64,000 bases of DNA from Terriglobus albidus (GTDB lineage Bacteria; Acidobacteriota; Terriglobia; Terriglobales; Acidobacteriaceae): positions 1,302,001-1,366,000 of the forward strand of contig NZ_CP042806.1 of the NCBI RefSeq assembly GCF_008000815.1, given 5' to 3'. Position numbers and translations under genes: made by a program. Position 1 is the first letter of the stretch. The number at the start of each line of letters is the position of its first letter. This document shows, piece after piece, positions 3,644 through 30,346 of the stretch. Under the pieces are notes generated by a model. It made no database searches. It worked only from the letters and a program-made list of their open reading frames with translations, and was not told where the DNA came from.

Positions 3644-5932
3644 TTACTGCGCAAGCTCGAAGCGTAATGTTCCGCCCTGCTTCAGCGCGTCGTGTGTGAG
3701 TTGAGAGTCAGTGATCTTCTTCCCATTCCAGGTAACCTCGCGGACGGTGAACTTTCCGGCTTCGGCGCCTTTCGCGATGACGTGCAGCTTCTGCCCATTG
3801 GGTAAGGAGATAGTCGCGTCGTCAAAGCGTGGAACACCCAAGGTGTAGACCGGTACGCCGGGGCATACCTGGTAGAGGCCGAGTGCGCTGAGCACATACC
3901 ATGCGCTCATCTGCCCGGCATCGTCGTTGCCTGCAAGACCGTCGGGACCATCTTTGTATTGGCTGTCCAGAATGGAGCGCACGTGTTGTTGTGTCTTCTC
4001 CGGAGCGCCTGCCACTGCGTATAGATAGGCGATGTGATGGCTGGGCTCATTGCCGTGCTCGTAGTAGCTCTTCGCGAAGAGCTCGTCGAGTTTCGCGACG
4101 AACTTTTCCCGGCCGCCGAGATACTCCATCAGTCCGGGAACATTCTGCGGAACGAAGAAGGTGTACTGCCATGGCAGGCCTTCCGTGATCCACGAGGCGT
4201 GCGCTGTTGGATCGAAGGGGGCGGCCCATGAGCCATCGCTGTTACGTCCACGCGCGAAACCTGTCTTCGGGTCGATTACGTTCCGCCAGTTCTCTCCGTG
4301 CTTTGCGAAGAGGGCGGCATCTTCGGTGTGTCCCAGAGCCTTGGCAAAGCGGGCCAGCATGGCGTCGTCGTAGGCGTACTCCAGCGTGCGCGAGACCTGC
4401 TCGTTCCGATGGAAGGCGTCGTCGATGTGGTCTTCCAGTGGGATGTAGCCGTACTTCAGATACGAGTCCAGGCCGCGACGGCCCTTACCGTCGAGATATT
4501 CGGCGCGATTCTGCGGAATGGTCAGCGCATTTTTGCGCATCAGTGTGTAGGCGCTCTCGGTGTCAAAGCCGCGAATGCCCTTCTCCCATGCATCGATGAT
4601 CATGGAGACCGAATGATCGCCGACCATCTCGGAGGTGTAGCTGTTCCATGCCGGGAAGATGGGAAGATAGCCGCCCTGCTCTCCCTTGGTGATGATCGAC
4701 TGCAGCATTGAAGCTTCAAGCTTCGGATCGAGGATCATCATCAATGGCGCCTGGGCGCGGAAGATATCCCATACCGAGAAGTCATCGAATTGCGTCTGTC
4801 CAGCAGCCACGTGTTCCGGTGTGCCGTGATCGTGGAAGCGTGGATAGGTGCCGCTCACGTCGCTGTAGGTGCGGGGCTGCAGCATGGCGTGATACAGCGA
4901 GGTATAGAAGACGGTCTTAGCCGGATCGTTGCCGGCGATCTGGATGCGGCCCAGTGCATCGTGCCATGCTTTGTGAGCGGAGGCCTCGATACGCTTCGCA
5001 TCCCAGTCAGCAATCTCTGCGTGAAGGTTGCGCCGCGCCTCCGCTTCGGAGACGAATGAGCTGCCCACGCGCACCGTGATGGTCTCTCCCTTGTGAACAG
5101 CGCCGAAATGGAGATATGCACCGAAGCCGGGCCGGGGAGCCGAGACCGGATTCGTGGCGGCAGCCGCCGACGCTCCACCGGTGGAGGTCATCATCTTCGG
5201 GACAACAACGACGCCCGCGGGCTTGCCGTCACCGACCTGCTTCGTGACCCCGTCATGTGCCGCCGCGCCAATGTAGGTTCCGACCGAGGTGACAGGATGG
5301 TCGAACTCGGCAACATACCAGGCGCTGTATCCCGCGGGTTTGCCGGAGCCGGCGTACTCGCGGCGGATCGGCACCTCCGCGGTTACTTCTTTGACCGCAG
5401 CGCTGACATTCACCCAGCCCTCTCCGGCACGGGCGTTGTTCTCGAAGACGATCCATCCGTCCGCGGAATCTTCCGTGAAGGTAAAGCGAAGAATGCCTGC
5501 GCGTGAGGTGGCGGTGACGTAGGCGGTTGCATGGGCATCGGGAAGATCGACCGTATAGGAGTACGGTGTTGCGTGCTCGCTGGTGCGGTCAAAACTGGAA
5601 GAGCGCTCGACGGCGTCTGTTTTCAGGGTGTCGGTACCGGGCATTAGAGTTACGCTGCCGTAGTCAGGGACACAGCTCCCACTCAGAAAGTGAGTCGCGC
5701 GAAGTCCCTGGATCCGTGTGTCGGGGAAGTAGTACGGCGCGACGCATTTGATCTCTCCCGCGCGTGTCTGCGGTGTCCAGTGCGTCATCGCGAAAGGGAC
5801 GCCGACGGCAGGATAAGTCTGGCCCTCGTTCTGCGTTCCGGTGAGCGGATGCACCAGGTCTTCCGGTGTGGTCTGGCTGAGAGAGGGAAGGCTAAGCAGA
5901 GAGGCAACAACGATTGGGATCAGTCGGGACAT
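3644..5932 (-). CDS. Secreted GH92 alpha-mannosidase
   Basis: A 762-residue glycoside hydrolase family 92 protein, a calcium-dependent inverting exo-alpha-mannosidase family. The start at 5932 is preferred because it gives a clean signal peptide (MSRLIPIVVASLLSLPSLSQ); an in-frame ATG at 5980 would add 16 charged residues ahead of it. Family landmarks are VHPLTGTQNEGQTYPAVGVP at the N-terminus, SVWDIFRAQAPL in the middle, HGNEPSHHIAYLY, and GNDDAGQMSAWYVLSALG near the C-terminus. It is probably periplasmic and trims mannose from glycans such as N-glycans or yeast mannan. It is convergent with the GH1 gene and followed upstream by a same-strand aminotransferase gene. Confidence 0.93.
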   Translation of the reverse strand: MSRLIPIVVASLLSLPSLSQTTPEDLVHPLTGTQNEGQTYPAVGVPFAMTHWTPQTRAGEIKCVAPYYFPDTRIQGLRATHFLSGSCVPDYGSVTLMPGTDTLKTDAVERSSSFDRTSEHATPYSYTVDLPDAHATAYVTATSRAGILRFTFTEDSADGWIVFENNARAGEGWVNVSAAVKEVTAEVPIRREYAGSGKPAGYSAWYVAEFDHPVTSVGTYIGAAAHDGVTKQVGDGKPAGVVVVPKMMTSTGGASAAAATNPVSAPRPGFGAYLHFGAVHKGETITVRVGSSFVSEAEARRNLHAEIADWDAKRIEASAHKAWHDALGRIQIAGNDPAKTVFYTSLYHAMLQPRTYSDVSGTYPRFHDHGTPEHVAAGQTQFDDFSVWDIFRAQAPLMMILDPKLEASMLQSIITKGEQGGYLPIFPAWNSYTSEMVGDHSVSMIIDAWEKGIRGFDTESAYTLMRKNALTIPQNRAEYLDGKGRRGLDSYLKYGYIPLEDHIDDAFHRNEQVSRTLEYAYDDAMLARFAKALGHTEDAALFAKHGENWRNVIDPKTGFARGRNSDGSWAAPFDPTAHASWITEGLPWQYTFFVPQNVPGLMEYLGGREKFVAKLDELFAKSYYEHGNEPSHHIAYLYAVAGAPEKTQQHVRSILDSQYKDGPDGLAGNDDAGQMSAWYVLSALGLYQVCPGVPVYTLGVPRFDDATISLPNGQKLHVIAKGAEAGKFTVREVTWNGKKITDSQLTHDALKQGGTLRFELAQ

Positions 5933-6025
5933 AGGTATCACAATGGCTTCAGGATCGTGGAGCGGTGAGAGATGGTGCATGACAAGGCGGGCAGGTTACG
6001 AACCTGCCCACCCGGACGGGAAAAT

Positions 6026-7327
6026 CTAAGCTTTCTTGCCTGCGGCGAGCTCGCCGATGGCATTGACGAAGCGGTCCAGGTCCGCGAGCGTCGTGTAAAC
6101 GTGAGGCGTGACGCGGATGCAGCGCACTCCCTCATAGTCGATGCCGACCGTATGGATCTTGTAGCGGTCGAACAATGTGTTCATTAACTCTGTGGGCGTA
6201 TATCCCTCGACACTGACTCCGCAGATGGCGCAGGAGAAGCGAGGATCGAGCGAGGTATGGAGCGTTACGCCCTTAATCTCACGTACTCGAGTTGCCCAGT
6301 AGCTCTTCAGGTAATGGATACGCTCCTGCTTGCGGCGGGATCCGATAGCCTCATGAAAGTTGATGGCCTCGCCGATACCCTGCTCGATGGGGAAGCTGCG
6401 TGTTCCAAGGGCTTCGAACTTGCGGATGTTGGGGCTGTGCGGATCACCGTAGCAGGTCAGCGGCCATAGCTTCGCGATCTTTTCCTGCTTCACCCACATC
6501 ATGCCTGACCCGATGGGGGCGGACAGGAACTTGTGCAGGCTGGTGCCGAAGTAGTCGCAGTGCAGGTCGGGAATCCTGAAGTCCAGCAGCCCGAAGGAAT
6601 GTGCGCCGTCGACAATGACTTCGGCCCCGTGGGCATGCGCCATATCGGCGATCTGCTGCACCGGCATGATCTGGCCTACCCAGTTGACGACGTGGGTGAT
6701 GTGCACCAGCTTCGTGCGCGGCGTCATCGCCTGCTCGTAGGTCTTTACGATGGCGTCTACGTCTTCTACCGGGAACTTGAAGGTGACCTGTTTGTAAACG
6801 ATGCCGTCGCGCTCTGCCCGCTGGCGGTAGGCATTCATCATGTTGGGGTAGTCGAACTTGCAGCCGACTACCTCGTCGCCTGTCTTGAGGGGCAGGCCGT
6901 AGATGATGGTGTTCAGCGCCTCGGTCGCATTCCGGTTGATAGCGATCTCTTCAGCGGAGGCGCCTGCCAGCCGCGCAAGTTTTTGACGGAGCGGCTCGCG
7001 GCCCTGATCCAGGATCTGCCACATGAAGTACGAAGGCCCCTCGTTCGTCATCTGGTTATAGCGGGCGACTGCCTCCTGCACGACAATCGGGGCGGGGGAG
7101 ACGCCGCCATTATTAAGGTTCAAGATAAGCGGGCTCACCGAATAGCCACGCTGGATCACGCTCCAGAAGTCCTCGTTCTGCGCCACCGTCGCCGCATCGT
7201 GATGATGGACAGCGCTGGCCGCCGCCTGCCACTCCTCCGCATGCGCCTGCTGGAAAAAGCTGTTCGATGAAAATGCGCCGGCTAGGGCGGTCAGCTTCAG
7301 GAAGGAGCGACGATCGTGCTGGGCCAT
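6026..7327 (-). CDS. Tat-exported class V aminotransferase (isopenicillin-N epimerase-like)
   Basis: A 433-residue fold-type I PLP enzyme of aminotransferase class V. The preferred start at 7327 gives MAQHDRRSFLKLTALAGA, a clear twin-arginine signal; a second ATG lies 18 bases upstream at 7345. PLP landmarks are VDGAHSFG, with the Asp that contacts the pyridine nitrogen, and YFGTSLHKFLSAPIGSG, with the Schiff-base Lys (K266). The nearest named relatives are isopenicillin-N epimerase-like and cysteine desulfurase-like proteins, but the substrate is unknown. Export of a PLP enzyme is what the Tat signal predicts. The gene is divergent from an oxidoreductase gene, and the 338-base gap holds several palindromes. 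Confidence 0.85.
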   Translation of the reverse strand: MAQHDRRSFLKLTALAGAFSSNSFFQQAHAEEWQAAASAVHHHDAATVAQNEDFWSVIQRGYSVSPLILNLNNGGVSPAPIVVQEAVARYNQMTNEGPSYFMWQILDQGREPLRQKLARLAGASAEEIAINRNATEALNTIIYGLPLKTGDEVVGCKFDYPNMMNAYRQRAERDGIVYKQVTFKFPVEDVDAIVKTYEQAMTPRTKLVHITHVVNWVGQIMPVQQIADMAHAHGAEVIVDGAHSFGLLDFRIPDLHCDYFGTSLHKFLSAPIGSGMMWVKQEKIAKLWPLTCYGDPHSPNIRKFEALGTRSFPIEQGIGEAINFHEAIGSRRKQERIHYLKSYWATRVREIKGVTLHTSLDPRFSCAICGVSVEGYTPTELMNTLFDRYKIHTVGIDYEGVRCIRVTPHVYTTLADLDRFVNAIGELAAGKKA

Positions 7328-7351
7328 ACCAGCAATGTAGGGCATGCTGTT

Positions 7352-7362
7352 CTGTTACGTAA
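7352..7362. promoter_or_regulatory. CTGTTACGTAA motif upstream of the aminotransferase gene
   Basis: This 11-base string is identical to the left part of a perfect palindrome at 17899-17919 ahead of a TonB-dependent receptor gene. It lies 25 bases upstream of the preferred aminotransferase start. A shared regulator is inferred, not shown. Confidence 0.3.
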
Positions 7363-7368
7363 ACAACG

Positions 7369-7401
7369 CTTCACCGTGAAGACTTTGGCGTTCACGGTGA
7401 A
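7369..7401. promoter_or_regulatory. Tandem operator-like palindromes TTCAC(C/G)GTGAA
   Basis: Two 11-base palindromes, TTCACCGTGAA centred on 7375 and TTCACGGTGAA centred on 7396, lie 21 bases apart, about two helical turns, so both face the same side of DNA. The first extends to CTTCACCGTGAAG. They lie between the divergent aminotransferase and oxidoreductase genes, closer to the former. This is the layout of a dimer-of-dimers repressor site. Confidence 0.45.
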
Positions 7402-7490
7402 AACCCTGTTGGCATCAGTGGTTTGCGGTGGGAAGTAGTGCTTGCAGCGGATTTAGTTCAAATCGCCATCATAATTTCGTCAAACCATTG

Positions 7491-7503
7491 TTCCGTGACG
7501 GAA
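7491..7503. promoter_or_regulatory. Operator-like palindrome TTCCGTGACGGAA
   Basis: A perfect 6+1+6 inverted repeat lies 163 bases ahead of the Gfo/Idh/MocA gene in an otherwise gene-free gap (7346-7665). Function is inferred from symmetry and position only. No convincing -35/-10 pair was identified in the gap. Confidence 0.3.
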
Positions 7504-7665
7504 ATGGGATGCGAGATGCCGAATTTCACCGGAAGTGTGTAAGATTGTCGCGCTTCTCAAGTCGTTCAGAATTCGTCGGCTTGAGATCGGCTGATCGGCG
7601 ATTGTTTCTTCCGCAAACGAATCAGGCGCCGCTGGCACAGCCGCAACTAACAAGAGGGATGAGTC

Positions 7666-9057
7666 ATGGAAGCAGAGAAGAGCACGAAGAACACGACCTA
7701 CTCGCGCCGGCGGTTTCTGAAGACCTCGGCCACTGCCGCGGTCGCTGCCGGATTTCCGGCGATTGTTCCAAGTTCGGTTTTCGGACAGAACGCCCCCTCG
7801 AACCGCATCAACATCGGAGCCATTGGCGTCGGCCGTATCTCCCGCACGCACGATCTGCCTAATCTCTGGAAGTACGACCAGGCGCGCATCCTCGCCGTCT
7901 GCGATCTGGATGCCGGCCGCGTTCAGGCGGGCAGGGAATTGATTGACGGTGTCTATGCCAAAAAGACCGGCAAGCCCTATCAGGGGACGTTGGGCTACAG
8001 CAATTATCACGAGCTGCTGGCTAACAAGGATATCGATGCGGTTGTGATCTCCACGCCGGATCACCAGCACGCCATTCTTGCTGTCTATGCGGTTCGTGCC
8101 GGCAAGGATGTGTATCTACAAAAACCGGCTTCGCTCACCATCGAGGAGGGCAGGCGCATGGCGGACGAGGTCAAGAAGTCAGGCCGCATCCTGCAGATCG
8201 GTTCGCAGCAGCGGTCGTGGAAGCAATTCCGTCGCGCCTGTGAGCTGGTACGGAATGGACGCATCGGAGACATCAAGCACGTCGAGATCGGCCTGCCAGG
8301 CGATCCTTCGGGCGGTAACCCGGCGCCGATGCCGGTGCCGGCGGGCTTCAACTACGACGCCTGGCTTGGCTCTACGCCCGAGGTGCCGTATACGCTGGAT
8401 CGCGTTATGCCCACCCATGGTTTCGATCGTCCCGGCTGGTTGCGCTGTGAACAATTCGGCGCCGGCATGATTACGGGATGGGGTGCCCACCACGTCGATA
8501 CCGCGCACTGGGGCATGAATACGGAGCTTACAGGTCCGGTCGAGATCTGGGGGACGGCGGAGTTCCCGACCTCCGGATTGTGGGATGTCCATGGACCCTT
8601 CAAGACCAACGCCGTCTATGCGAATGGCGTGACGATGACGATCAGCGGAGAGTTCCAGAACGGCATCAAGTTCTATGGCACCAAGGGATGGATCTTCGTT
8701 TGCCGTGATGAACAGGCATCGCCTACGGCTGCCGCGGGCGAGAAGGCAAAGATCGAGCCGCTGGTGGCAAGTGATCCGAAGATCCTCGACAGTGTTATCG
8801 GACCGAACGAGACCCATCTCTACTACAGCGAAGATCAGCATGGAAACTGGCTCGACTGTATCCGCTCGCGCAAGGAGCCTATTGCTCCGGCAGAGATTGG
8901 ACACCGGGCTTGCTCCACCTGTCTGCTGCATCACATTGCGATGAAGACCAAGCGTCGCTTGCATTGGGATCCGATGAAAGAGCGCTTTGTGAAGGATGAC
9001 GATGCGAACCGGTATCTCAGCCGTACGCAGCGTGCGCCGTATACGTTGCCGGTTTAG
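7666..9057 (+). CDS. Tat-exported Gfo/Idh/MocA family oxidoreductase
   Basis: A 463-residue NAD(P)-dependent dehydrogenase-type protein. Residues 13-40 (SRRRFLKTSATAAVAAG and onward) form a twin-arginine signal. The Rossmann fold starts at INIGAIGVGRIS (residues 48-59) and continues to AVCDLD. The catalytic Lys of the EKP motif is present as QKP (K163), so the Glu is replaced. GWGAHHVDTAHWG carries the usual His residues of the C-terminal domain. Family members oxidise or reduce sugars, inositols or glycosides; some exported members act as glycosidases or lyases with bound NAD. The setting among glycosidases suggests sugar modification in the periplasm. The start follows a GAGGG ribosome site. 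Confidence 0.88.
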   Translation: MEAEKSTKNTTYSRRRFLKTSATAAVAAGFPAIVPSSVFGQNAPSNRINIGAIGVGRISRTHDLPNLWKYDQARILAVCDLDAGRVQAGRELIDGVYAKKTGKPYQGTLGYSNYHELLANKDIDAVVISTPDHQHAILAVYAVRAGKDVYLQKPASLTIEEGRRMADEVKKSGRILQIGSQQRSWKQFRRACELVRNGRIGDIKHVEIGLPGDPSGGNPAPMPVPAGFNYDAWLGSTPEVPYTLDRVMPTHGFDRPGWLRCEQFGAGMITGWGAHHVDTAHWGMNTELTGPVEIWGTAEFPTSGLWDVHGPFKTNAVYANGVTMTISGEFQNGIKFYGTKGWIFVCRDEQASPTAAAGEKAKIEPLVASDPKILDSVIGPNETHLYYSEDQHGNWLDCIRSRKEPIAPAEIGHRACSTCLLHHIAMKTKRRLHWDPMKERFVKDDDANRYLSRTQRAPYTLPV

Positions 9058-9081
9058 CAGGTTGAAGAGTAGTCCAGAACT

Positions 9082-9278
9082 GGGTGCCCCACATACGCGC
9101 CGCGGGTCCCAGCTAGCTTTGCTAGCTGGGTGCAAGCTTATGTGGGTGTATCGAGCGAAGCTCGATCCGCTTTTGTTTGTCATTTCGTAGCGATCTGTTT
9201 TCTATTGCTTTACAGAAGGCTAAGACGGTCGAGCTCCGCTCGAATGTCCCACATAAGCTTCGCGTATGTGGGGCACCC
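9082..9278. repeat. 197-base nested palindrome between convergent genes
   Basis: Perfect 18-base outer arms (GGGTGCCCCACATACGCG at 9082-9099 and its complement at 9261-9278) enclose further inverted pairs: AAGCTTATGTGGG (9134-9146) with its complement at 9248-9260, a hairpin CCCAGCTAGC/GCTAGCTGGG at 9108-9130, and ATCGAGC/GCTCGAT near 9150-9166. The centre holds a short piece of the R1 repeat family (TTTGTCATTTCGTAGCG). It separates the oxidoreductase gene from the convergent ROK gene and could act as a two-way transcription stop. Confidence 0.6.
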
Positions 9279-9294
9279 GGTGCATGGAGTTTCG

Positions 9295-10479
9295 CTAACG
9301 AAGGGCCGTCAACCGTTTGAAACCCGTATGGCGTTGCAGTACGACTGCTGCGGCGCCACGAAGCCGCGCTGCTTCGCCGTCCGCTAATGCGATCAGCTTT
9401 GGCGGAGCCCCGGTCAACATGCGCGTAGAGAGTTCTGAGGCGACGATGGGGCCTACCGTATCCCAGCGCAGGGTGATGTCGCCGGCAAACAGAATCACCT
9501 CAGGATCGAAGGTTGCCGTCACGATTCGCAGGCCTCGGCCGATTCCCCTGGCCTGCTTCTCCAGTGCGATTCGGGCTTTCTCATTGCCGCTCGCTTCCAT
9601 ATTGAGAAGCTGTTGAATCGTCGGCGTCTCGCTGGAACCGGTGCCTTCGTGGAAGTAGCGTAGTGCTGCCCGTGAGGAGGCAAACATCTCCCAGCAGCCC
9701 ACCTGGCCGCATGCGCACTGCGGGCCGGAGTCGGCGATGGGGATATGCCCCAGTTCTCCTGCCATGCCGGTTGCACCTTCGACGAGATTGCCGTTCACCA
9801 GTAACGCGGCGCCGACACCTTCCGAGATCGTGACCAGCACGGCATTGCGGATTCCCTGGAGTCGTCCGAACCACTGTTCTGACAACATGCAGGCATTGGC
9901 TGCGTTCTCCAACTCTACCTGGAGTCCAAGGCGTTTCTGCAGGGCGCCGCGGATATCGAAGCCAACCCAGGGAAGGTTCGGCGCCAGCGCCAGTCGGTGC
10001 GATCGTTTGTCGACACGGCCGGGAAGGCTGATGCCGACTCCCTCGCAGGTCTTGTCGGCAAACTGTGTCTGTAGACGCTTCATCCCTTCGGCAATGGCAT
10101 CGACGCCTTGTTTGGCATTGGCGATCACCGGTACCAGGGTGCGGTCGAGAAATCTTCCATTCAGATCGACAACGGCGAGAATCGTCTGCGTCGGGCGCAC
10201 ATCCGCGACCAGAATGACGAGATCGTCATTCATGGTCAGCATGGTCGGCCTGCGGCCGCGTGCTGTCTTCAGTATCTGTCCTTCACGGATCCAGCGCTCT
10301 TCGATCAGGCCGTCCACGATGGCGGAGACGGTGGAGCGCTGCAGGCCCGACCGTCGCGCGATATCGACACGGGAGATGGGTTGGTTGCAGCGCAAGACTT
10401 CCAGTACGAGATCACGGTTGTGATCTCGTATCGGCGCGGCAGTACGGGGAGTGGGAGCGGGAGACGGAGGTCGTTTCAT
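9295..10479 (-). CDS. ROK family transcriptional regulator (NagC/XylR type)
   Basis: A 394-residue sugar-responsive regulator. Residues about 20-75 form a winged helix-turn-helix (SRVDIARRSGLQRSTVSAIVDGL). The rest is a ROK domain with the family zinc site: H245 in GELGHIPI, then C255, C257 and C262 in CACGQVGCWE. The kinase phosphate loop is degraded (ADVRPTQ instead of DxGxT), and the ENDAN motif reads ENAAN, so it probably binds sugar without phosphorylating it. It is divergent from a TonB-dependent receptor gene, the likeliest target. AT-rich repeats in the shared gap are candidate binding sites. Confidence 0.92.
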   Translation of the reverse strand: MKRPPSPAPTPRTAAPIRDHNRDLVLEVLRCNQPISRVDIARRSGLQRSTVSAIVDGLIEERWIREGQILKTARGRRPTMLTMNDDLVILVADVRPTQTILAVVDLNGRFLDRTLVPVIANAKQGVDAIAEGMKRLQTQFADKTCEGVGISLPGRVDKRSHRLALAPNLPWVGFDIRGALQKRLGLQVELENAANACMLSEQWFGRLQGIRNAVLVTISEGVGAALLVNGNLVEGATGMAGELGHIPIADSGPQCACGQVGCWEMFASSRAALRYFHEGTGSSETPTIQQLLNMEASGNEKARIALEKQARGIGRGLRIVTATFDPEVILFAGDITLRWDTVGPIVASELSTRMLTGAPPKLIALADGEAARLRGAAAVVLQRHTGFKRLTALR

Positions 10480-14134: not shown

Positions 14135-14180
14135 CGAAGCGGGCCTCGTTCCTTTAGGGATGAGGCCCGCTTCGCATTTG
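14135..14180 (+). terminator. Terminator-like hairpin after the receptor gene
   Basis: CGAAGCGGGCCTC (14135-14147) pairs perfectly with GAGGCCCGCTTCG (14162-14174), followed by CATTTG. The T-run is weak, so the stop may be partial and could let some reading into the SGNH gene. Confidence 0.65.
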
Positions 14181-14199: not shown

Positions 14200-14871
14200 A
14201 TGCGAGGCCTTTCTTTTTTACTCACTCTCTTGATGGCGGTTGCAATGCATGGGCAGATACATGTGGTGAACGCCGGCTTTGGCGGCAGAAATACTGCCGA
14301 GCTCGAAAAACGTTTCGCGCATGAGTTGGCGGAGGCCAAGCCTGCCTATGTCGTGCTCTTTGCCGGTACCAACGATGCATTGAACGATACCAAGTTTCTT
14401 ACTCCATCGCAGACGAGAGAGAATCTCACCGCGATGGTCCAGCAGGCCCAGGCTGCAGGAGCGTCTGTGGTTCTGGTGACCGTGCACGATCCGGATCTCA
14501 CGCGCCTGCTGAAACGCCACCGGCCCGAGGCATACGGTAGTGTGCCGCCTGTGGAGCGGGTTGCCCAGGTGAATGCCGTGATCGAGGAAGTGGCTCGGAC
14601 CCACCATGCCGTCGTTGTCCCGTTTCATGAGATCCTCCAGCAGGCCGGCGGGGCGAACGCCGAACTAAGCACCGACGGAGTTCATCTGACTGCGAAGGGC
14701 TATGGCATGCTGGCCGCAGCAGTGCGCTCAAGGCTGCCGCTGCAGATTCCTCCAAACGTTTCGGTTTTGTGCATGGGAGACAGCTTGACCTACGGCATCG
14801 GCGTCCGTCCTGATGGGGCGCCGGAGACCGCCGAAACCTACCCCGCACAGTTAAGCGCTCTTCTTCGGTGA
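14200..14871 (+). CDS. Exported SGNH/GDSL-type hydrolase with permuted block order
   Basis: A 223-residue protein with a short signal peptide (residues 1-19). It carries all SGNH marks but in a shifted order: block II VVNAGFGGRNT (G28), block III GTND (N58), block V DGVHL (D159, H162), and only then block I VLCMGDSLTYG with the nucleophile S195, ending YPAQLSALLR. In ordinary family members GDS is first. The C-terminal 30 residues are what would normally precede the N-terminus, so the protein reads as a circular permutation that may still make a full Ser-Gly-Asn-His site. The next gene begins 28 bases later, so the family is not simply continued after a frameshift. Likely an esterase or deacetylase acting on glycans; substrate unknown. 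Confidence 0.8.
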   Translation: MRGLSFLLTLLMAVAMHGQIHVVNAGFGGRNTAELEKRFAHELAEAKPAYVVLFAGTNDALNDTKFLTPSQTRENLTAMVQQAQAAGASVVLVTVHDPDLTRLLKRHRPEAYGSVPPVERVAQVNAVIEEVARTHHAVVVPFHEILQQAGGANAELSTDGVHLTAKGYGMLAAAVRSRLPLQIPPNVSVLCMGDSLTYGIGVRPDGAPETAETYPAQLSALLR

Positions 14872-14898
14872 CGACAAAGCAGCCCGGGCGTCGGTAGA

Positions 14899-16191
14899 AT
14901 GCCCTGCATGGCAACGACTCTCCCGCCGCCGGTTCAGGAATCTTCGGAGACCTCCGGCGTCATCGAAGCGCATGTGCAGCGGGTGCTGCACAGTCCGCAC
15001 TTCGCCCGGGCTGAAACGCAACGCAAGTTGCTGCAATACCTATGGGAACATCGCTTTGGGAATGTGAGCGAGTATGCCATCGCCACGGATGCGCTTGGCC
15101 GTCACAGCAACTTCGATTCCACGACGGATGCCTCGGTTCGCGTTCACATCTCCCGCCTGCGCCGCAAGCTGAAGGACTACTACCAGCAGGAGACCGACGA
15201 GCTTGAGCTCCTGGTTATCCCCACCGGTACCCATCAACTGATGGTGCTCGACCATCCCGCGCCTTCCGTGGCTGAGCCGCTGCCGGCTCCGGATCTCGAT
15301 CCCGTCGCCGTGCCAGAGGTGACCCGGTCGGCAGTTCCGTTCCTGTGTGGAGCTATTGTTCTTCTGGTCATGGCCGTCGTATGGCTGGCCTGGAGCAACC
15401 ATGTCTTGCGCGCGACGAATGATCGACGGGCGCCAAATGCCTTCTGGGCCTCGTTCCTGGAGGGTTCAGCCCCGATCCGCATCATTCTGCCGACGCCGAT
15501 CCTGTTTTCGTTTTCGAATGCCCCGACCTTCCGTTTCCGTTCCACTCAAGTTAACGATTACAACGACATCCCCAAGGACCCCCAGTTCGAGGCATTGACG
15601 AAGGATCTGGGGAAGCCGTCGTTGGAGCAACCCTACACTGTATCCTGGGACACGCTTGCCGCCATCGATATGGCGCGCTACCTGGACTCGGTCGGGGCCA
15701 AACAGCGCGTCTCGTTCGATGTGACTCGGGATCTGTCTCCGATGGTCCTGGAACAGGCGAATGTGATTGCCCTCGGGACTCATCAGACGCTGCAGCCGCT
15801 CCATGACTATCTGCAGGCGATGAACTTTTCGCTGTCGCAGTCGGAGCTCCGGGTTACCAACGCCCATCCCTCCAAGGGAGAGCAGGGGACCTACGAGATC
15901 ATCCATAAGTCGAGGGATCATGAGGTGCGCCCCTCCATTATTTCCATCCTTCCAGGCCGTGCACCGGGACTTAAAGTCCTGCTGATGCAATCTCGGGATA
16001 CAGGAGCCTTGGTTGCGTTGATCTCGTCTTCGGCCGGCTCCAACTCGATTGAAGAGATGTGGAGGAAAAACGGTTCACCGAAATACTTCGAAATGGTGAC
16101 CTATACCGAGGTGGAGAGCAATCGGGCACTGGGCACCTGGCCGGTGGCAATGCACGTCTTCACCTCGCAAGCCCCTGCAAATTCAATGTAA
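14899..16191 (+). CDS. Membrane-anchored winged-helix regulator (ToxR-like)
   Basis: A 430-residue protein. Residues about 20-115 form a winged-helix domain of an acidobacterial type: HSPHFARAETQRKLLQYL, SEYAIATDALGRHSNFD, then SVRVHISRLRRKLKDYY as the recognition region. A Pro-rich linker leads to one membrane helix at about residues 145-166 (VPFLCGAIVLLVMAVVWLAW). The remaining 260 residues would lie in the periplasm and show no domain that I recognise. The plan is that of ToxR/CadC one-component regulators that sense outside the membrane and bind DNA inside. It sits between the SGNH gene and the FAD oxidoreductase gene in the same direction and may control the cluster. A second ATG at 14908 is an alternative start. 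Confidence 0.75.
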   Translation: MPCMATTLPPPVQESSETSGVIEAHVQRVLHSPHFARAETQRKLLQYLWEHRFGNVSEYAIATDALGRHSNFDSTTDASVRVHISRLRRKLKDYYQQETDELELLVIPTGTHQLMVLDHPAPSVAEPLPAPDLDPVAVPEVTRSAVPFLCGAIVLLVMAVVWLAWSNHVLRATNDRRAPNAFWASFLEGSAPIRIILPTPILFSFSNAPTFRFRSTQVNDYNDIPKDPQFEALTKDLGKPSLEQPYTVSWDTLAAIDMARYLDSVGAKQRVSFDVTRDLSPMVLEQANVIALGTHQTLQPLHDYLQAMNFSLSQSELRVTNAHPSKGEQGTYEIIHKSRDHEVRPSIISILPGRAPGLKVLLMQSRDTGALVALISSSAGSNSIEEMWRKNGSPKYFEMVTYTEVESNRALGTWPVAMHVFTSQAPANSM

Positions 16192-17919: not shown

Positions 17920-18049
17920 TTGGAACTTCACCGGCATCGATCCGGGAACGAATAGTTAGCTGCCATAAGGGACAACTGGCGATTCCTTTTCTTTGGGAAT
18001 CGCCTCCCTTGGACCCAGGACAAACTGCAGTGCTTATGAGGCCCAACCT

Positions 18050-21000
18050 ATGAAGCAAATTCTCAAGACGCAAGGCCGTTGCTTTGGCCTTCTCCTCGTT
18101 CTTCTCCTCGTTTCGTCTATGTTGCCGGCGCAGGTTGCGAACGGGGTCATCACCGGACGTCTGACCGACAGCACCGGCGCAGTGATTCCCAACGCCCAAC
18201 TCACCCTTACCAAGACTGACACCGGACTGAAGCTGGCGACCCAGAGCAACAGCGACGGTATCTACAACTTCTTCTCACTTCAGACCGGACCCTACAAAAT
18301 TCAGGTCTCGCAGAGCGGTTTCAAGTCGGCAGAGACGACGCTGACGCTCACCGTAGGGCAGACGGCGACGATCGATCTCTCGCTTGAGATCGGCTCCAGT
18401 ACCGAGACCATCAATGTCGAGTCGGCCGGTATGGCCGATCTCGAGACCAGCGATTCCACCATCAGTTACACGGTCGGGACCCGCCAGGTGAGCGACCTTC
18501 CGTTGAATGGACGCAACCCCTACGGCCTGGCAGCACTGTCGCCCGGCATCGCGCCTGGTGGCGGCTTCGGACAGGGGGTAAGCCAGACACGCGGCGCTGT
18601 TGTGGCTGCGGGTACCAACAATTTCGAATCCAATGGCGGAGCGGCGGGTTCGAACGAGATCTTCTTCGACGGCGTGCCGGTAACAGTTTGCTGCCAGGGC
18701 CAACCGGCGCTAACACCTTCGGTTGAGGTTGTCGATCAGTTCAAGGTCATCACCGCGGTTCCTTCGGCGCAGTTCGGACGTTCTTCCGGCGGCATTCTGA
18801 ACATTGTGTCGAAGACCGGTACGAACCAGATCCACGGTTCCGCCTACGACTACCTGCGCAACGAAAAGCTCGACGGCGCGAACTACTTCCTGAAGTACAA
18901 CAACACGCCGCCGATCCGCGGACGCAACGACTTTCGCGCACCGCACAAGTTCAATCAGTATGGCTTCTTCCTGAACGGTCCTGTGTGGTTGCCGAAGATC
19001 TACAACGGCCGTGAGAAGACCTTCTTCACCTTCGGGTGGGAGGCCTCGCGCAACGTACTGTATAACGCGGTGACGGCGACTGTGCCGACGGCTTTACAGC
19101 GTCAGGGTGTGTTTACTGAAGCTCCCGGAATGATTTATGACCCCTACAGCACCAGCGGCAATACCCGTCAGCCATTGGCTGCCGGCTGCAACTCAACGGG
19201 ATGCTATGGCGCCGGCAAGCTGGTGCAGAATATCAATCCCGTCTCGCAGAAGCTGTTACAGTTCCTGCCGCTTCCCAACATCTCCGGCACGTCGAATAAC
19301 TACGTCTACGCCAATCGCACCAGCGATCAGGTAGACCAGTTCAACTTCCGCGTCGATCACAACTTCTCGCCATCGCAGCGTGTCTTCGTACGCGGCACCC
19401 GCGACACCAATACGCATCACGAGAACGATCTCTTCAATCAGGCCAACGGTCCCAGCGGCATCAACCAGACCCTGCGCGCCTATCTGTTTGCGGTTGGCGA
19501 TACCTGGACGATTACGCCGAACTTTCTGCTGCAGACCAACTACGGCTTCGCTTACCAGAAGAACTTTCAGATTCCCCAGAACTACACCGGCTACAAAGCA
19601 TCCGACTACGGATTTACCAACCTTGACTCACAACAGCAGCTTCCTGGCCTGCCATATATCGGCATTAGTGGCTACGCCAATATGTCAAACGCCACTAATA
19701 CCAACCGCTGGGAGCACTACAGCCACTTCCTCGAATCGACGGCGGTGTGGCAGCACGGCAAGCATACTCTGACTTTTGGTTATGACGGCCGTCTCATCCA
19801 GGAGCACCAGCAAAGCGCCGGCAACGGCCCGGGCTCCCTCACCTTCGACACCACACTGACCAACGGTCCGATTGTCACCAGCGCGGCGCCATCCAGCCAG
19901 GCGCAGTTCGACTCCTTCGCGGCATTTCTGATGGGGACCTTCACCAATGCTGCGATCGTTCGCCAGGTGAAGCCGGCGTATGACTCCTGGTATCACGCCC
20001 TGTATGTGCAGGAGGACTGGCGGGCGAATTCGAAGCTGACCATGAACTTCGGTCTGCGTTATGACATCGAGACCGGATATCGTGAGCGGCATAACCAGTG
20101 GGCCGATCTGGACCTGTCAGCATCGAATCCGCTTTCGAGCTCAGCGTTGCCCTTTACCGGCGGAGCGCGTTATCTCGGCAGCAACTTTCCCAATCGCACG
20201 TGGAAGACCTATTACAACAAGTTCGCTCCACGTATTGGCCTGGCCTTCCAGGTAACGGATAAAACCGTACTTCGTGCCGGATATGGCCTGCTGTATCTGC
20301 CGACGTCGCAGCGGTTCTACAGTACAGGAACGCTCGGTTATTCGCAGCAGACGCAGACAACCTTTACCAGCACCAGTGTTCCGACGACCACGATTGCGAA
20401 TCCATTTCCATCGGGTGTGTTATTGCCGGCAGGCCCGAGTGCCGGTGTGACTGCTGGTACAGGTACCTCTGTCAGCGGCGCGATTTATAACAATCCAGTG
20501 CCTTACTTTCAGCAGTACAACGCCGGCGTTGAGCGGCAGATCGCTAATGGCGTCGTTGTCCACTTCAACTACGTCGGCACCCACGGTGTCCACCTGCCCA
20601 TCAACTATCGTCCGAATGACCTTCGCGATCAGTACTGGGGTGCGCCGGGAAGCCAGTCTCAAATCGACTACCTCAACACGCAGGTTGCGAATCCGTTCTA
20701 CGGAAATTCACAGGCTGGTCCGCTGGCCACACCGACTACCGTGCAGCGGGTGCAATTGCTCTCGCTTTATCCGCAATACACGCCGAACACCGGTATGGCA
20801 AACAATTCCATTACCGTCGCCCAGATGGGGATCGGCGCCTCCATCTTCAACGCAGCGCAGGCCTTCATTACCATCCAGCGCTCGAAGAATCTTTCGGCAA
20901 CCGTCAGTTATACCTTTTCCAAGTTGATGGGCAATGGCACGCCTTCGCTGACCGCCTTCCTCAACGCTAACTACTCCAACGGAAGCCCCGGCATCCAGAA

Positions 21001-21613
21001 CAGCTATCACATTCAGGATAAGGAGTGGTCTGTGCTCTCGACGGATATTCCTCATCGCATCGTTGCAAACGCCAATTACACGCTGCCTTTCGGCCGCGGC
21101 CAATCATTCGGAAGCAACGTGAGTGGATGGATGAACCAGGTCATCGGCGGATGGAAGCTCAACAGCATTGTCTCCGTTCAGTCTGGCTACACGCTGGGCA
21201 TTACACAGACCGGCGGTCAGGCTTACTCCGGTGGGCGTCCCTTCTTTGTCTCCGGTGTCGATCCTCTTACCTCGGGTGATGTTCATCAACGCCTCGGCGG
21301 TAACGGCCAGACACAGGGCTATCTCAACCCCAACGCCTTCCGCAAAGCGACCGCCTTCGAACTTGGGGATACGCCTCGCTTCTCTGGCCGGATGCGCAGC
21401 CCGGTTGGCTTCCAGGATGACGTGTCTCTGCTGAAGGACTTCGCCATTCACGAGCGTCTCGGATTGCAGTTCCGTCTTGAAGCCTTCAACTTCCTCAACA
21501 AGGTGCAGTTCGGTGTGCCAAACACTCAGTTTGGGTCCGCGACGTTCGGCGCCATCACAACGCAGGCAAACCTTCCACGCAACATTCAGACTGCGCTCAA
21601 GCTGACGTTCTAG
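18050..21613 (+). CDS. TonB-dependent receptor, Oar-like
   Basis: A 1187-residue outer-membrane protein. The start at 18050 gives a good signal peptide (MKQILKTQGRCFGLLLVLLL, cleavage near LPAQ); an earlier in-frame ATG at 17993 would add 19 non-signal residues. A carboxypeptidase-regulatory-like domain occupies about residues 30-115 (NGVITGRLTDSTGAVIPNAQ). A plug-like segment follows (VSDLPLNGRNPYGLAALSPG; VVDQFKVITAVPSAQFGRSSGG; GTNQIHGSAYDYLRN), and then a large barrel ending NIQTALKLTF with terminal Phe. The role is import of a bulky nutrient across the outer membrane. It is the last gene of the carbohydrate region and is preceded by an operator-like palindrome. Confidence 0.92.
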   Translation: MKQILKTQGRCFGLLLVLLLVSSMLPAQVANGVITGRLTDSTGAVIPNAQLTLTKTDTGLKLATQSNSDGIYNFFSLQTGPYKIQVSQSGFKSAETTLTLTVGQTATIDLSLEIGSSTETINVESAGMADLETSDSTISYTVGTRQVSDLPLNGRNPYGLAALSPGIAPGGGFGQGVSQTRGAVVAAGTNNFESNGGAAGSNEIFFDGVPVTVCCQGQPALTPSVEVVDQFKVITAVPSAQFGRSSGGILNIVSKTGTNQIHGSAYDYLRNEKLDGANYFLKYNNTPPIRGRNDFRAPHKFNQYGFFLNGPVWLPKIYNGREKTFFTFGWEASRNVLYNAVTATVPTALQRQGVFTEAPGMIYDPYSTSGNTRQPLAAGCNSTGCYGAGKLVQNINPVSQKLLQFLPLPNISGTSNNYVYANRTSDQVDQFNFRVDHNFSPSQRVFVRGTRDTNTHHENDLFNQANGPSGINQTLRAYLFAVGDTWTITPNFLLQTNYGFAYQKNFQIPQNYTGYKASDYGFTNLDSQQQLPGLPYIGISGYANMSNATNTNRWEHYSHFLESTAVWQHGKHTLTFGYDGRLIQEHQQSAGNGPGSLTFDTTLTNGPIVTSAAPSSQAQFDSFAAFLMGTFTNAAIVRQVKPAYDSWYHALYVQEDWRANSKLTMNFGLRYDIETGYRERHNQWADLDLSASNPLSSSALPFTGGARYLGSNFPNRTWKTYYNKFAPRIGLAFQVTDKTVLRAGYGLLYLPTSQRFYSTGTLGYSQQTQTTFTSTSVPTTTIANPFPSGVLLPAGPSAGVTAGTGTSVSGAIYNNPVPYFQQYNAGVERQIANGVVVHFNYVGTHGVHLPINYRPNDLRDQYWGAPGSQSQIDYLNTQVANPFYGNSQAGPLATPTTVQRVQLLSLYPQYTPNTGMANNSITVAQMGIGASIFNAAQAFITIQRSKNLSATVSYTFSKLMGNGTPSLTAFLNANYSNGSPGIQNSYHIQDKEWSVLSTDIPHRIVANANYTLPFGRGQSFGSNVSGWMNQVIGGWKLNSIVSVQSGYTLGITQTGGQAYSGGRPFFVSGVDPLTSGDVHQRLGGNGQTQGYLNPNAFRKATAFELGDTPRFSGRMRSPVGFQDDVSLLKDFAIHERLGLQFRLEAFNFLNKVQFGVPNTQFGSATFGAITTQANLPRNIQTALKLTF

Positions 21614-26919: not shown

Positions 26920-27744
26920 TTAGTTTTCTGTAGGACGTTCGATATGGTTGATGGCAACCGCCGGGACAGTATCTTTTTGTGATTCCAGTTTCAGGCCAAG
27001 TTGCTCCTGCAATGCCGTGAACAGCGTCGGACCTGCTTCGGCGGCAGGAGCGCTGCTTGCATCTGTCGCAGCGTTGGACTGTGGTGTCCAGTGGAGCTTC
27101 CAGTCATACTCTCCGGACATATTGGTTTTGTTTATGACGACGCGTCCGTCCGCCTCCGGCATGTTGGAGATGACCCTGGCAACCAGGTCCATGGTGATCG
27201 CGCTACCCTCGGCGTTGCCAGGACCTCGCCCCTGCCATCCATGGTTCCGTTGTTCTCCGGGGGTGGGTGGAGGTGTGGGTGTTACCTTCGCTCCGCCCTT
27301 CGCGACCACCAGCGCATAGATCGGTACCTCGGCACTCTGTGGCGTGGTTTCGAGATGGAAGCGCTCGACCAGCATCTGCCGCACGATCTCCCGTACTGCT
27401 GTAAAACGGCCTTCGAACCCCATCTTCATCAGCTCTGCACTCAGAGCCTCATCTTCCTTGGCATCGATCTCATACCGGTCCGTGTTTACCCAGACCGGAG
27501 CGTTCAAGAGTTGCGAGTCAGACTTCAGGTCGTAGGCAAACTTGATCACGTCTTTGAGTGGCATGTTATGTACGGTCATCTTGCCCTGGCCAAACAGGAG
27601 TGAGTTGCCTGTAGAGCCGGGCGGGGTGGGCTTAATGACGACGACCTCAAACTTCGCATCGGCTATCGGTTGCGATGTCTGTCCAATGCAAAGAGGAGCC
27701 GCGAGAGCGAGCATGCTTACTAGAAGAGACGGGACGCGTGTCAT
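26920..27744 (-). CDS. TIGR03435 family exported protein, copy 4 of 4
   Basis: A 274-residue protein of the soil-associated TIGR03435 family, whose function is unknown. It has a signal peptide (MTRVPSLLVSMLALAAPLCIGQ). Family marks in order are FEVVVIKP at the mature N-terminus, HNMPLKDVIKFAYDL, ERFHLETTPQSAEVPIYALVVAKGG, VINKTNMSGEYDWKLHWTP, LFTALQEQLGLKLE, and the extreme C-terminus HIERPTEN. It starts two bases after the stop of copy 3 and lies 33 bases before the Oar-like gene. It is the last of the four tandem copies in transcription order. Confidence 0.9.
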   Translation of the reverse strand: MTRVPSLLVSMLALAAPLCIGQTSQPIADAKFEVVVIKPTPPGSTGNSLLFGQGKMTVHNMPLKDVIKFAYDLKSDSQLLNAPVWVNTDRYEIDAKEDEALSAELMKMGFEGRFTAVREIVRQMLVERFHLETTPQSAEVPIYALVVAKGGAKVTPTPPPTPGEQRNHGWQGRGPGNAEGSAITMDLVARVISNMPEADGRVVINKTNMSGEYDWKLHWTPQSNAATDASSAPAAEAGPTLFTALQEQLGLKLESQKDTVPAVAINHIERPTEN

Positions 27745-27746
27745 AT

Positions 27747-28544
27747 TCAGTTCTCCGTCGGCCGTTCCAGATGGTCAATGACAACGATGTCGATGGGAGC
27801 CTTGTCCTGTTCCAGCTTCAGGCCCAGCTGCTCCTGTACGGCGGTAAAGAGAGAAGGTTTTGATGTGTCTTGTGCCGCGTCGGGTGACCAGCTCAGCTCC
27901 CAGTCATAATGTTTTGTCAGGCCAGTCTTGTCGACGACGACTCGTTCATCGACATCTTCAAGGTGTGACAGCATGGCGGCGAATATCGCCATCGTGACAT
28001 TTGTGGCCGTGATGTGCGTAGAAGTGAATGAGAGGCTACCCTCGGTTTCACTCGATGAATCGGAAGAATCCTCGATCTGCGGTTTCGGAGCCGATTCCTT
28101 CAGTTTTGGTCCGCCTTTTGCAACGGTGAGGGCGTAGACCGGACGTTCGCGGTGGATGTGCGTGACCTTGAGATGGAAGCGATCTTCCAGAAGGTGTTGC
28201 ATCTCAGCTCTACAGAGTTCCTCTGATTTCTGATCGGATAAGGTTTTCGACATCGCGATGGTCGCGTCGTCGGCCTTTGCCTCGATGGTGTAGTGGGTTG
28301 ACCGAGCCCATTCAGGGAGATTCTCGAGTTGCGATTCGGAACGGATATCGAATGCGATCTTGATGATGTCGCGGAGGCTCGCATTTACTAGCCGAAGTCC
28401 CTCCGCTCCAATCTTCCAGTTTGCATTGGAATCTTCAATCGTCGGGGGCCGTATCGACGCTACCTCGTAGGCATAGCGCGCCTGCCCATAACCGGCTATA
28501 GAGGCAAACAGCAGGCAACCCATCAGAATGTGGCGTCGACTCAT
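27747..28544 (-). CDS. TIGR03435 family exported protein, copy 3 of 4
   Basis: A 265-residue paralogue. Signal peptide MSRRHILMGCLLFASIAGYG. It keeps YEVASIRPP, LVNASLRDIIKIAFDIRSESQL, DRFHLKVTHIHRERPVYALTV, VVDKTGLTKHYDWELSWSPD, LFTAVQEQLGLKLEQDKAPID and the C-terminal HLERPTEN. It resembles copy 2 most over the last 40 residues. It starts five bases after the stop of copy 2 with no strong ribosome site of its own, so translation is probably coupled. Function unknown; the signal peptide places it in the envelope. Confidence 0.9.
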   Translation of the reverse strand: MSRRHILMGCLLFASIAGYGQARYAYEVASIRPPTIEDSNANWKIGAEGLRLVNASLRDIIKIAFDIRSESQLENLPEWARSTHYTIEAKADDATIAMSKTLSDQKSEELCRAEMQHLLEDRFHLKVTHIHRERPVYALTVAKGGPKLKESAPKPQIEDSSDSSSETEGSLSFTSTHITATNVTMAIFAAMLSHLEDVDERVVVDKTGLTKHYDWELSWSPDAAQDTSKPSLFTAVQEQLGLKLEQDKAPIDIVVIDHLERPTEN

Positions 28545-28549
28545 GGTGC

Positions 28550-29416
28550 TCAGTTCTCCGTCGGACGTTCCAGATCATCAATCACCAGCAGGTCTACCGG
28601 AGCTTTGTCCTGCTCCACTTTCAGACCTAGCTGTTCCTGCAGTGCGGTAAAGAGGTTTGGTTTTGAGGTATCGGCTGTTGGAACCAGCGCTGGATTGCCA
28701 TCGGCTCCACGAAAGCTATTTTGCTGTCTCTCAGGCGACCAGTCCAGTGTCCAGTCGAATCTTCCGGGAAGATTTGTCCGGTCCAGCACGACACGGCCAT
28801 CCGTCTCGGTCATGTGCGAGAGCTGGTTGGCAAACATCTCCATGCTGCCGTTGGTGACAACCATGTGCCCGTTGCTTGTGCTGGCGCTGGTTCCGCGGTC
28901 CCGGGGTTTGGCGTTGGGGTCGGTGTCCGGGGGGGGCGGGGGAGGGATGGTTGCCTTCAGCTTGCTGCCGCTTTTGGCAACCGTAAGGCTATAGACCGGC
29001 AGCTCTTTCTTTGCCCAATGGAACTTCAGGTGGAAGCGGTCTTCGAGCAGCGACTGCATCATCTCCTGCTGCCACTTCTGGCGCTCGTCGCGGGAGAGGC
29101 CTTTCATCGTGACGGCGGTTTCTTCATCCACCTTGGCATCGATATTGAACCGCTCCGATTTTGCCCAGTCGGGCATACTCTCGATCTGTGATTCAGACCG
29201 GATGGTGAAGCCCATCATGAGAAGTTGCCGCAACAGGACGTTTTCGCAGCGAATGCGATACGGTGTAGTGCTAACGCTCGTACTATCGTTGGCCGCAGCC
29301 GACGGCTTTACCGAGACGACTTCAAAGCTGTGTTTCTGTTGGCCGGTCTGAGACGGGCTCTGGGCACAGGCGGCTAATGCGCCGCCCAGCACGGCAGTTG
29401 CAAGAAGTCGACGCAT
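28550..29416 (-). CDS. TIGR03435 family exported protein, copy 2 of 4 (possible lipoprotein)
   Basis: A 288-residue paralogue from the ATG at 29416; a GTG at 29440 in frame would add eight residues. The signal MRRLLATAVLGGALAACAQS contains LAAC, which fits a lipobox, so this copy may be lipid-anchored while the others look freely secreted. Family marks are FEVVSVKPS, LLRQLLMMGFTIRSESQI, DRFHLKFHWAKKELPVYSLTV, VLDRTNLPGRFDWTLDWSPE, LFTALQEQLGLKVEQDKAPVD and the C-terminal DLERPTEN. A Pro-rich insert lies around residues 155-170. Function unknown. Confidence 0.88.
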   Translation of the reverse strand: MRRLLATAVLGGALAACAQSPSQTGQQKHSFEVVSVKPSAAANDSTSVSTTPYRIRCENVLLRQLLMMGFTIRSESQIESMPDWAKSERFNIDAKVDEETAVTMKGLSRDERQKWQQEMMQSLLEDRFHLKFHWAKKELPVYSLTVAKSGSKLKATIPPPPPPDTDPNAKPRDRGTSASTSNGHMVVTNGSMEMFANQLSHMTETDGRVVLDRTNLPGRFDWTLDWSPERQQNSFRGADGNPALVPTADTSKPNLFTALQEQLGLKVEQDKAPVDLLVIDDLERPTEN

Positions 29417-29443
29417 GGCGATGGATACGCAGGCGGCCACGGT

Positions 29444-30346
29444 TTAGTTCGCTGTCGGGTGGTCCAGACTCTCAACATGGTAGCTCGTCACCAGATCTTT
29501 GGCCGTCTCCAGCTTGAGACCGAGTTGCTCCTCCAGGGCGGTGAAAAGGGTCGGCCCGTTATTGTCCGACGCTGGGGGTGGAGGCGCTCCGCTGTCGGCT
29601 CCTCGGAAGGCGGGCGCAGGCATCTCCGGAGTCCACTTCAGGGTGAAGTCATAGTGTCCGGTCAGGCCGGTCTTATCGACGACGACGCGTTCGCTTGCTT
29701 CAGGCATGTGAGAGATCACATTCGCAATCATGCCTGTGGTCGAGTCAGTACCGGTTAGCTGACCGCGGCCATCCATCATCATGCCCCGCCGCATACGTTG
29801 AGGCCCCCCGGCTCCCGGCCCTGCATCCGGTCTGGCGCCAGGGCCGGCCTTCTCGTCTGCGGGTGGAGCCGCTGACGGCTTCATCTTCACGCCACTCTTT
29901 GCCACGACCAGCGCGTAGACGGGCTGCTCTTTCTGTTCCTTGGTGAGCTTCAGGTGAAGTCTCTCTTCCAGCATCTTCTGCACCATGCGCCGCGTGGCAT
30001 AACCGCGTTCTTCCTCGGGCAGTTTTCGCAGAGCCCGGGCCTCTTCCTCATCCTGTTTGGCCTCGACATCATAGTGCTCCTGCTTTGCCCACTCCGGCAG
30101 GCCGCTCAATAAGGAGGAGGACTTGATCTCGTAGGCGAAGTTGATCAGCTCCACCAGTGGCATGTTCTTCGCATGCAGGACTCCCTCGGACATCTGCATC
30201 ATCATGCGCCGTTCTGCCGGATCGCTGGGTTTGATGGTGGCGACTTCAAAGGCCGGCTCGGGCCTGGCGGTCTGTTGTGCCGCACCGATGCGCGTAACCG
30301 CGATGCACGTAACCGTGCAGAGGAAGAGAGCAGGAAGACGGTTCAT
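29444..30346 (-). CDS. TIGR03435 family exported protein, copy 1 of 4 (operon lead gene)
   Basis: A 300-residue paralogue from the ATG at 30346, chosen for its ribosome site (GAGGA, eight bases away) and signal peptide (MNRLPALFLCTVTCIAVTRI, cleavage near GAAQ); an ATG at 30382 is less likely. It keeps FEVATIKPSDP, KNMPLVELINFAYEIKSSSL, ERLHLKLTKEQKEQPVYALVV, VVDKTGLTGHYDFTLKWTPE and LFTALEEQLGLKLE. Its C-terminus is SLDHPTAN, the most diverged of the four. A Gly/Pro/Ala-rich insert with GPGARPDAGPGAGG lies in the middle. It is the first gene of the operon, 75 bases after the DNA glycosylase gene. Confidence 0.9.
   Translation of the reverse strand: MNRLPALFLCTVTCIAVTRIGAAQQTARPEPAFEVATIKPSDPAERRMMMQMSEGVLHAKNMPLVELINFAYEIKSSSLLSGLPEWAKQEHYDVEAKQDEEEARALRKLPEEERGYATRRMVQKMLEERLHLKLTKEQKEQPVYALVVAKSGVKMKPSAAPPADEKAGPGARPDAGPGAGGPQRMRRGMMMDGRGQLTGTDSTTGMIANVISHMPEASERVVVDKTGLTGHYDFTLKWTPEMPAPAFRGADSGAPPPPASDNNGPTLFTALEEQLGLKLETAKDLVTSYHVESLDHPTAN

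Follow-up and report, generated by a model that had tools for sequence, protein, structure and literature searches.

Can an SGNH hydrolase whose nucleophile comes last in the chain be a complete enzyme, or is such a gene a leftover of a larger one? The question is raised by a 223-codon gene of Terriglobus albidus, located in a stretch of 64,000 nucleotides that is called the window hereafter. In canonical SGNH enzymes, the conserved blocks follow one another in the order I-II-III-V, and helix alpha1, which comes after Block I, leads into strand beta2. In the 223-residue protein the order is II-III-V-I, with G29, N58 and D159/H162 preceding GDSLT, and S195 sits 28 residues before the C-terminus. 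The features of the gene are as follows.

14200-14871, plus strand: gene of a putative permuted SGNH hydrolase (223 aa and a stop codon); the same arrangement in 17 intact members
14200-14256, plus strand: predicted signal peptide, residues 1-19, proposed from the hydrophobic N-terminus and the alignment; strand beta2 directly after it
14266-14295, plus strand: Block II VNAGFGGRNT, residues 23-32; oxyanion Gly G29, invariant in 13/13
14365-14376, plus strand: Block III GTND, residues 56-59; oxyanion Asn N58, invariant in 13/13; GxND in 17/17
14668-14691, plus strand: Block V STDGVHLT, residues 157-164; D159 and H162 invariant in 13/13 and present in 17/17
14767-14808, plus strand: C-terminal Block I LCMGDSLTYGIGVR, residues 190-203; nucleophile S195; GDSLT invariant in 13/13 and present in 17/17
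14839-14868, plus strand: helix alpha1 YPAQLSALLR, residues 214-223; a helix at 195-203 of the model (mature numbering), also placed by the rotated profile against 1yzf

The motifs are numbered G26-F27-G28-G29, G56-T-N58-D59, D159-G-V-H162 and G193-D-S195-L. The preliminary description of the locus had already reported the II-III-V-I order with the Ser near the C-terminus, and this order proved common to all 17 intact members. Its list of active-site residues stands for N58, D159, H162 and S195 but not for G28: the oxyanion glycine is G29, as this residue is invariant in the 13 aligned sequences and position 28 varies (Pro in eight, Gly in four, Ala in one). There is no place for a Block I upstream, since the end of the preceding gene is at 14123 and the SGNH frame extends for just 12 codons 5' of its ATG. 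The interval between that upstream gene, which encodes a receptor, and the SGNH gene contains a perfect 13-base inverted repeat (14135-14174) that resembles a terminator with a weak T run. The SGNH gene ends with a stop codon at 14869-14871.

The Pfam profile Lipase_GDSL_2 (PF13472) matches the 223-residue protein with an E-value of 4.7e-30 in two stretches, the main one beginning at profile position 28. When four other members were each scanned alone, only the II-III-V stretch passed, which makes the C-terminal Block I by itself a weak profile match. The strength of this block lies in its conservation, not in its profile match.

A canonical profile was built from 22 SGNH proteins of canonical order from the same and related genomes. 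L005, which is not an SGNH protein, and L003, an SGNH protein with an atypical Block V, were dropped from both the profile and the tree described below. As it stands, the window protein matches profile positions 30-179 with its mature residues 4-159 (84.7 bits) and positions 4-18 with residues 169-183 (5.7 bits), an order inverted with respect to the profile. Once rotated to canonical order, it matches in a single stretch, at 99.1 bits over profile positions 4-179. The behaviour is alike in all 13 members tested, with one continuous match after rotation and two out-of-order stretches as they are, and cutting them at two wrong places leaves the match split in 13/13. The C-terminal stretch of the unrotated match is weak throughout (3.0-6.4 bits across members). 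It is the continuity and not the score that constitutes the evidence of this test, since the whole-sequence scores of the window protein differ little (92.3 as is, 99.3 rotated, 93.4 and 82.1 wrongly rotated). In addition, a single uninterrupted alignment links the rotated family profile to 1yzf, covering positions 3-202 of 205 and including Block I. A natural permutant is recognised by a rotated copy that aligns continuously with the canonical family, and at the level of sequence this is what we find. The proposal that YPAQLSALLR is the segment that normally leads into Block II agrees with its alignment in the rotated profile and with its helical conformation in the model.

That model, obtained with AlphaFold2 for the mature protein from 13 sequences, shows a complete alpha/beta fold and is predicted with confidence (pLDDT 92.1, pTM 0.90; mean pLDDT of the five models 88-92). 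Its C-terminal part comprises, in mature numbering, a strand at 169-174, a short helix at GDSL and a helix at 195-203, which in the model are the beta1-Block I-alpha1 unit of canonical enzymes. The GDSLT segment is thus predicted not to hang free but to form the expected strand and helix, and an unpaired segment would have spoken against a permuted enzyme in the preliminary description. Confidence is lowest at Block I and in the loop after GDSL, with ten-residue block means of 82 and 77. The predicted model has the alpha/beta/alpha architecture of SGNH proteins and its top PDB matches are SGNH enzymes; overall, its matches (Foldseek, VIA-align 2) are mainly SGNH hydrolases, together with designed scaffolds and PatB O-acetyltransferases. 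The best one is 3mil_B (Z 17.7, rmsd 2.1, 164 aligned), and 1yzf matches with Z 16.9 and rmsd 2.1 over 153 aligned residues. Most matches span model residues 1 to about 165, corresponding in 1yzf to chain residues 40-193, after its Block I, and residue 204 is reached by 2 of 50 among the PDB matches listed. That they stop near residue 165 is as expected from a sequential aligner on a permuted chain. Among viral structure models, Foldseek matches are mainly esterase and tail-protein proteins of the SGNH type.

The gene is not peculiar to the window. A search for homologues of like order, suggested in the preliminary description, was performed with a junction profile (A3) that covers the V-to-I junction, residues 148-223. 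In the taxonomic family, 18 of 398 genomes matched, with 17 full junctions in two genera and one partial junction in a third genus. The 17 intact members thus belong to one taxonomic family of Acidobacteria: 11 are in the genus of the window, where a search of 19 genomes recovered the gene from 11 (including that of Terriglobus albidus, G008), and 6 are in the second genus, including an Edaphobacter sp. MAG (G392). Every one of them has the order II-III-V-I, keeps the block motifs and reaches its stop codon shortly after Block I; the Block V His and GDSLT are 28-30 residues apart, and the chain ends 8-21 residues past the YP of the last helix, alpha1. Across the 13 aligned rows, identity with the window protein ranges from 44 to 91%, and G29, N58, D159, H162 and GDSLT are invariant. 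By a counting method, omega is 0.09-0.14 for the II-III-V part and 0.01-0.25 for the C-terminal Block I part (39-41 codons), in both cases for seven of eight pairs, the eighth being saturated and synonymous distances exceeding 1 in some pairs. Both parts are, by these values, under purifying selection. The conserved order, the invariant residues and the low omega in both parts make a fragment or frame artefact unlikely. The gene can nevertheless be lost, as indicated by a decayed copy in a genome of the third genus (G236, locus L066, 1468-1998, minus strand), whose frame is shortened and in which the Ser of GDSL is replaced; this copy adjoins an intact gene for the winged-helix regulator described below.

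Beyond the family, the junction profile matched 15 of 298 genomes in an order sample, 11 of 299 in a class sample and 6 of 297 in a phylum sample, these samples overlapping. None of the matches lies outside the one taxonomic family, in a search whose scoring was limited to 19 first-look candidates per genome and that weak cases may escape. The decayed copy is among the order-sample matches. One class-sample match, L067, was discarded as a permuted member: it is a different protein, with canonical order. The single scan of genome contigs was run with the whole protein and barely sampled other phyla. In the viral scan, 14 loci were retrieved, Block I being matched in 12 and Block V alone in 2. 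The junction profile found no match in plasmids and phages at E <= 0.01. With the whole protein, plasmid matches amount to four records of at most 32% identity, the longest of which, from Parabacteroides, was rejected as a permuted protein: the first 70 codons of an annotated SGNH gene lie before the match, which continues past the stop of that gene.

How did the permutation arise? In a tree of the 17 rotated permuted sequences and 36 canonical ones, built with 14 of the 22 frames of one listing and including L067 and L002 as long, unreliable rows, the permuted sequences are on one side of a branch with support 97/98. They share one long branch, and the tree names no sister. As the permuted rows form one side of that branch, a single origin of the permutation in this sample would be the simple reading. 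Searching 200 family genomes with the rotated protein gave matches in 43 at E <= 1e-13, with the permuted family itself in 8; the remaining ones, among the matches listed, are canonical paralogues of 28-41% identity, and no closer canonical parent was found at that threshold. Likewise, the rotated profile retrieved the permuted family alone (7 genomes), and no parent, from 200 class genomes at E <= 1e-24. Tandem-domain intermediates were not found either, no two rows being near enough, on inspection by eye, among the Lipase_GDSL_2 matches listed for 41 genomes. Six listed Lipase_GDSL_2 proteins outside the family lack the start of the profile and were considered as further permutants, but all have canonical order; Block I is degenerate in two of them, and four have a long stretch after Block I. 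A tandem in genome G138 (L150, 417-2005), which carries the permuted gene besides, was set aside as an intermediate too: it consists of two SGNH genes of canonical order, the first with GAS for GDS.

SGNH proteins of relatives at four loci (L140-L143) have a long stretch that separates Blocks I and II; it is in this region that the permuted chain is cut. These proteins are in canonical order, with frames of 462-638 aa and the stretch inserted, whereas the window family is permuted; the two have in common that large changes occur in the alpha1-beta2 region. This region thus appears to be a tolerant place for cutting. Given these proteins and the tandem of G138, permutation by duplication is plausible from the sequences at hand.

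With canonical SGNH/GDSL hydrolases (PF13472; 1yzf, 3p94), the window family shares the four blocks and catalytic residues, the alpha/beta/alpha fold of the model and the single-domain size. It differs from them by its order, II-III-V-I instead of I-II-III-V, and by its chain ends, which lie between alpha1 and beta2; Block I is C-terminal, not N-terminal, in 17/17 members. As for permutation itself, the preliminary description knew of no described permuted SGNH family. Such proteins are on record: according to a 2022 review, AlgJ and AlgX are circularly permuted, with the order H-S-G-N, a Tyr in Block III, GTSYS and DxH, and PatB1 is similar (PMC9487903). The AlgJ order is also given as H-S-G-Y (PMC4148444), that of WssI as H-S-G-D (PMC10302187), and the permutation in AlgX, AlgJ and PatB1 is noted in a paper on OatA (PMC5697884). 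These O-acetyltransferases resemble the window family in their permuted SGNH fold, in which Block V precedes Block I in the chain. Their cut point, however, is another one, H-S-G-N as opposed to G-N-H-S, and in AlgX and AlgJ the motifs are GTSYS, DxH and a Tyr in Block III where the window family has GDSLT, DxxH and Asn. AlgX further contains a carbohydrate-binding module, for which the window protein, with about 204 mature residues, would have no room. The Pfam profile ALGX (PF16822) gives weak matches in 3 of 13 members, the best at 1.7e-5. No SGNH permutant of the G-N-H-S type was found in the literature searched, whose coverage mostly excludes subscription journals and preprints. The best reading, within that coverage, is that of a known superfamily and a known phenomenon, SGNH permutation, the new element being the G-N-H-S cut with unaltered canonical motifs.

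What the enzyme might do is suggested by its surroundings. The genes that follow it in the window are listed here.

14899-16191, plus strand: winged-helix (Trans_reg_C) regulator, by Pfam; likely start 14908; C-terminal domain of about 250 aa
16059-17870, plus strand: FAD-dependent oxidoreductase (PF12831), whose true start is probably further in
17993-21613, plus strand: TonB-dependent-receptor-like outer membrane protein (OMP_b-brl_4), by Pfam

The frame after the SGNH stop, from 14899, thus encodes an unrelated regulator and not a second SGNH domain. A full second domain behind the gene in homologues would, for the preliminary description, have betrayed a truncated tandem gene; no second SGNH match is present in the flanks read at the family loci. 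The regulator may be membrane-anchored. Its C-terminal domain gives a fair model (pLDDT 82) that has no PDB match at E <= 0.001. In 12 of 17 genomes the regulator gene lies next to the permuted gene, divergently in two of these; it is absent from the flanks read in five, G013 and G017 among them. Where the flanks are long, at the loci L009, L010, L012 and L013, the FAD oxidoreductase comes next and then the TonB-receptor-like protein, cut by the end of the locus. In two genomes (G002, G007) the regulator-oxidoreductase-receptor set is present and the permuted gene is located elsewhere, and in another (G351) the permuted gene adjoins the receptor. The regulator is rare, with 5 of 120 family genomes matching at E <= 1e-40; four of these have the permuted gene, and the fifth (G108) has regulator and oxidoreductase, with no SGNH match in the 7.5 kb read. 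Together, these genes suggest that a substrate is taken up and de-acylated.

Other features of the region deserve mention. At 14895-14910, a TAGAAT is followed 7 bases on by the conserved ATG of the regulator. TA[AG]AATnCCnnnCATG lies 5' of this ATG in 9 of 10 aligned rows (the window and nine relatives), the tenth having TGGAAT. This pattern suggests a leaderless regulator transcript with a promoter just past the end of the SGNH gene. No Rfam match was obtained between 13900 and 16300. Farther upstream, at 3644-10479, genes for a GH92 glycoside hydrolase, a ROK-family protein and a GFO/IDH/MocA oxidoreductase hint at a sugar-utilisation region. On the minus strand, DUF3738 proteins are encoded at 26920-27744, 28550-29440 and 29444-30382, i.e. 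by three of four neighbouring frames, 27747-28544 not having been scanned; this cluster (26920-30382) adjoins a VWA-domain gene and another receptor-like gene.

We consider the protein to be a serine ester hydrolase that is exported, belongs to the SGNH superfamily and has a circularly permuted chain, a reading to which we give a probability of roughly 0.8 from sequence and model. The complete but permuted enzyme proposed in the preliminary description is supported by the order conserved in 17 genomes, the invariant catalytic residues, selection in both parts, the confident fold model and the homology seen after rotation. One rival reading would be a functionless truncated tandem gene or decaying fragment, made of the last two-thirds of one SGNH copy and the first third of a lost second copy. 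The decayed copy in G236 and the canonical tandem in G138 lend it some colour; yet a single architecture in 17 genomes, invariant catalytic residues, an omega of about 0.1 for the II-III-V part as well as for the Block I part, a complete model predicted with confidence and no second SGNH match in the flanks read make it very improbable.

A folded SGNH-like protein that is no hydrolase, either an O-acyltransferase or a ligand-binding signalling partner of the winged-helix regulator, is unlikely, if the least so of these rivals. The regulator adjoins the gene in 12 of 17 genomes and is rare, most of the genomes that have it also having the permuted gene (4 of 5); moreover, the permuted SGNH proteins described in the papers cited above are acetyltransferases, and two bacterial SGNH-fold PatB O-acetyltransferases are among the PDB matches. 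However, all four blocks of canonical hydrolases are intact, with the Block III Asn and the DxxH that are altered in AlgX/AlgJ, and none of the 13 frames of the window around the gene that were scanned with Pfam matches an acyl-donor (MBOAT-like) family. It is also conceivable, with a probability that we regard as small, that the protein forms a domain-swapped oligomer, each active site being completed by the C-terminal Block I of a partner chain. The 28-30 residues between the Block V His and GDSLT would permit it, and the confidence of Block I is below that of the core; the single-chain model is nevertheless confident (pTM 0.90), and the near-constant spacing fits both cases.

The permuted hydrolase is very likely, as predicted from sequence and model, an active exported acyl or acetyl esterase. 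Its new chain ends would be in the loop that joins helix alpha1, which follows Block I, to strand beta2 of Block II, such that the signal peptide is joined straight to beta2, and the last elements to be synthesised are beta1, Block I (GDSLT, S195) and alpha1. Folding would then slot beta1 into its usual position in the sheet. The triad would consist of S195, H162 and D159, and the oxyanion hole of the backbone of S195, G29 and N58. The enzyme would most likely remove acyl or acetyl groups from a substrate that the outer-membrane receptor and the FAD oxidoreductase encoded nearby handle as well, with the adjacent winged-helix regulator in control; this view of substrate and pathway is drawn from the neighbouring genes alone.

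Natural permutants in which all canonical motifs are intact show which breakpoints evolution accepts. The SGNH permutants described in the papers cited above have the order H-S-G-N, or a replaced Asn, and altered motifs in AlgX/AlgJ and PatB1. As the window family cuts the fold at a second place and keeps the textbook catalytic blocks, the effect of topology can be separated from that of chemistry, in a small, single-domain protein from a cultured soil bacterium, Terriglobus albidus. The family also carries a warning for annotation: profile tools label the protein an ordinary GDSL lipase, and their main match leaves out the nucleophile block. As for what the permutation might bring, one doubtful option is that the G-N-H-S proteins form a new topological SGNH class in which the permutation itself contributes to function, through activity delayed by a late nucleophile or through a switch made of Block I. 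If so, the nucleophile would be translated and exported last, and there would be no activity until export is complete. Alternatively, the C-terminal Block I segment would act as the switch, which the winged-helix regulator encoded alongside would sense or release.
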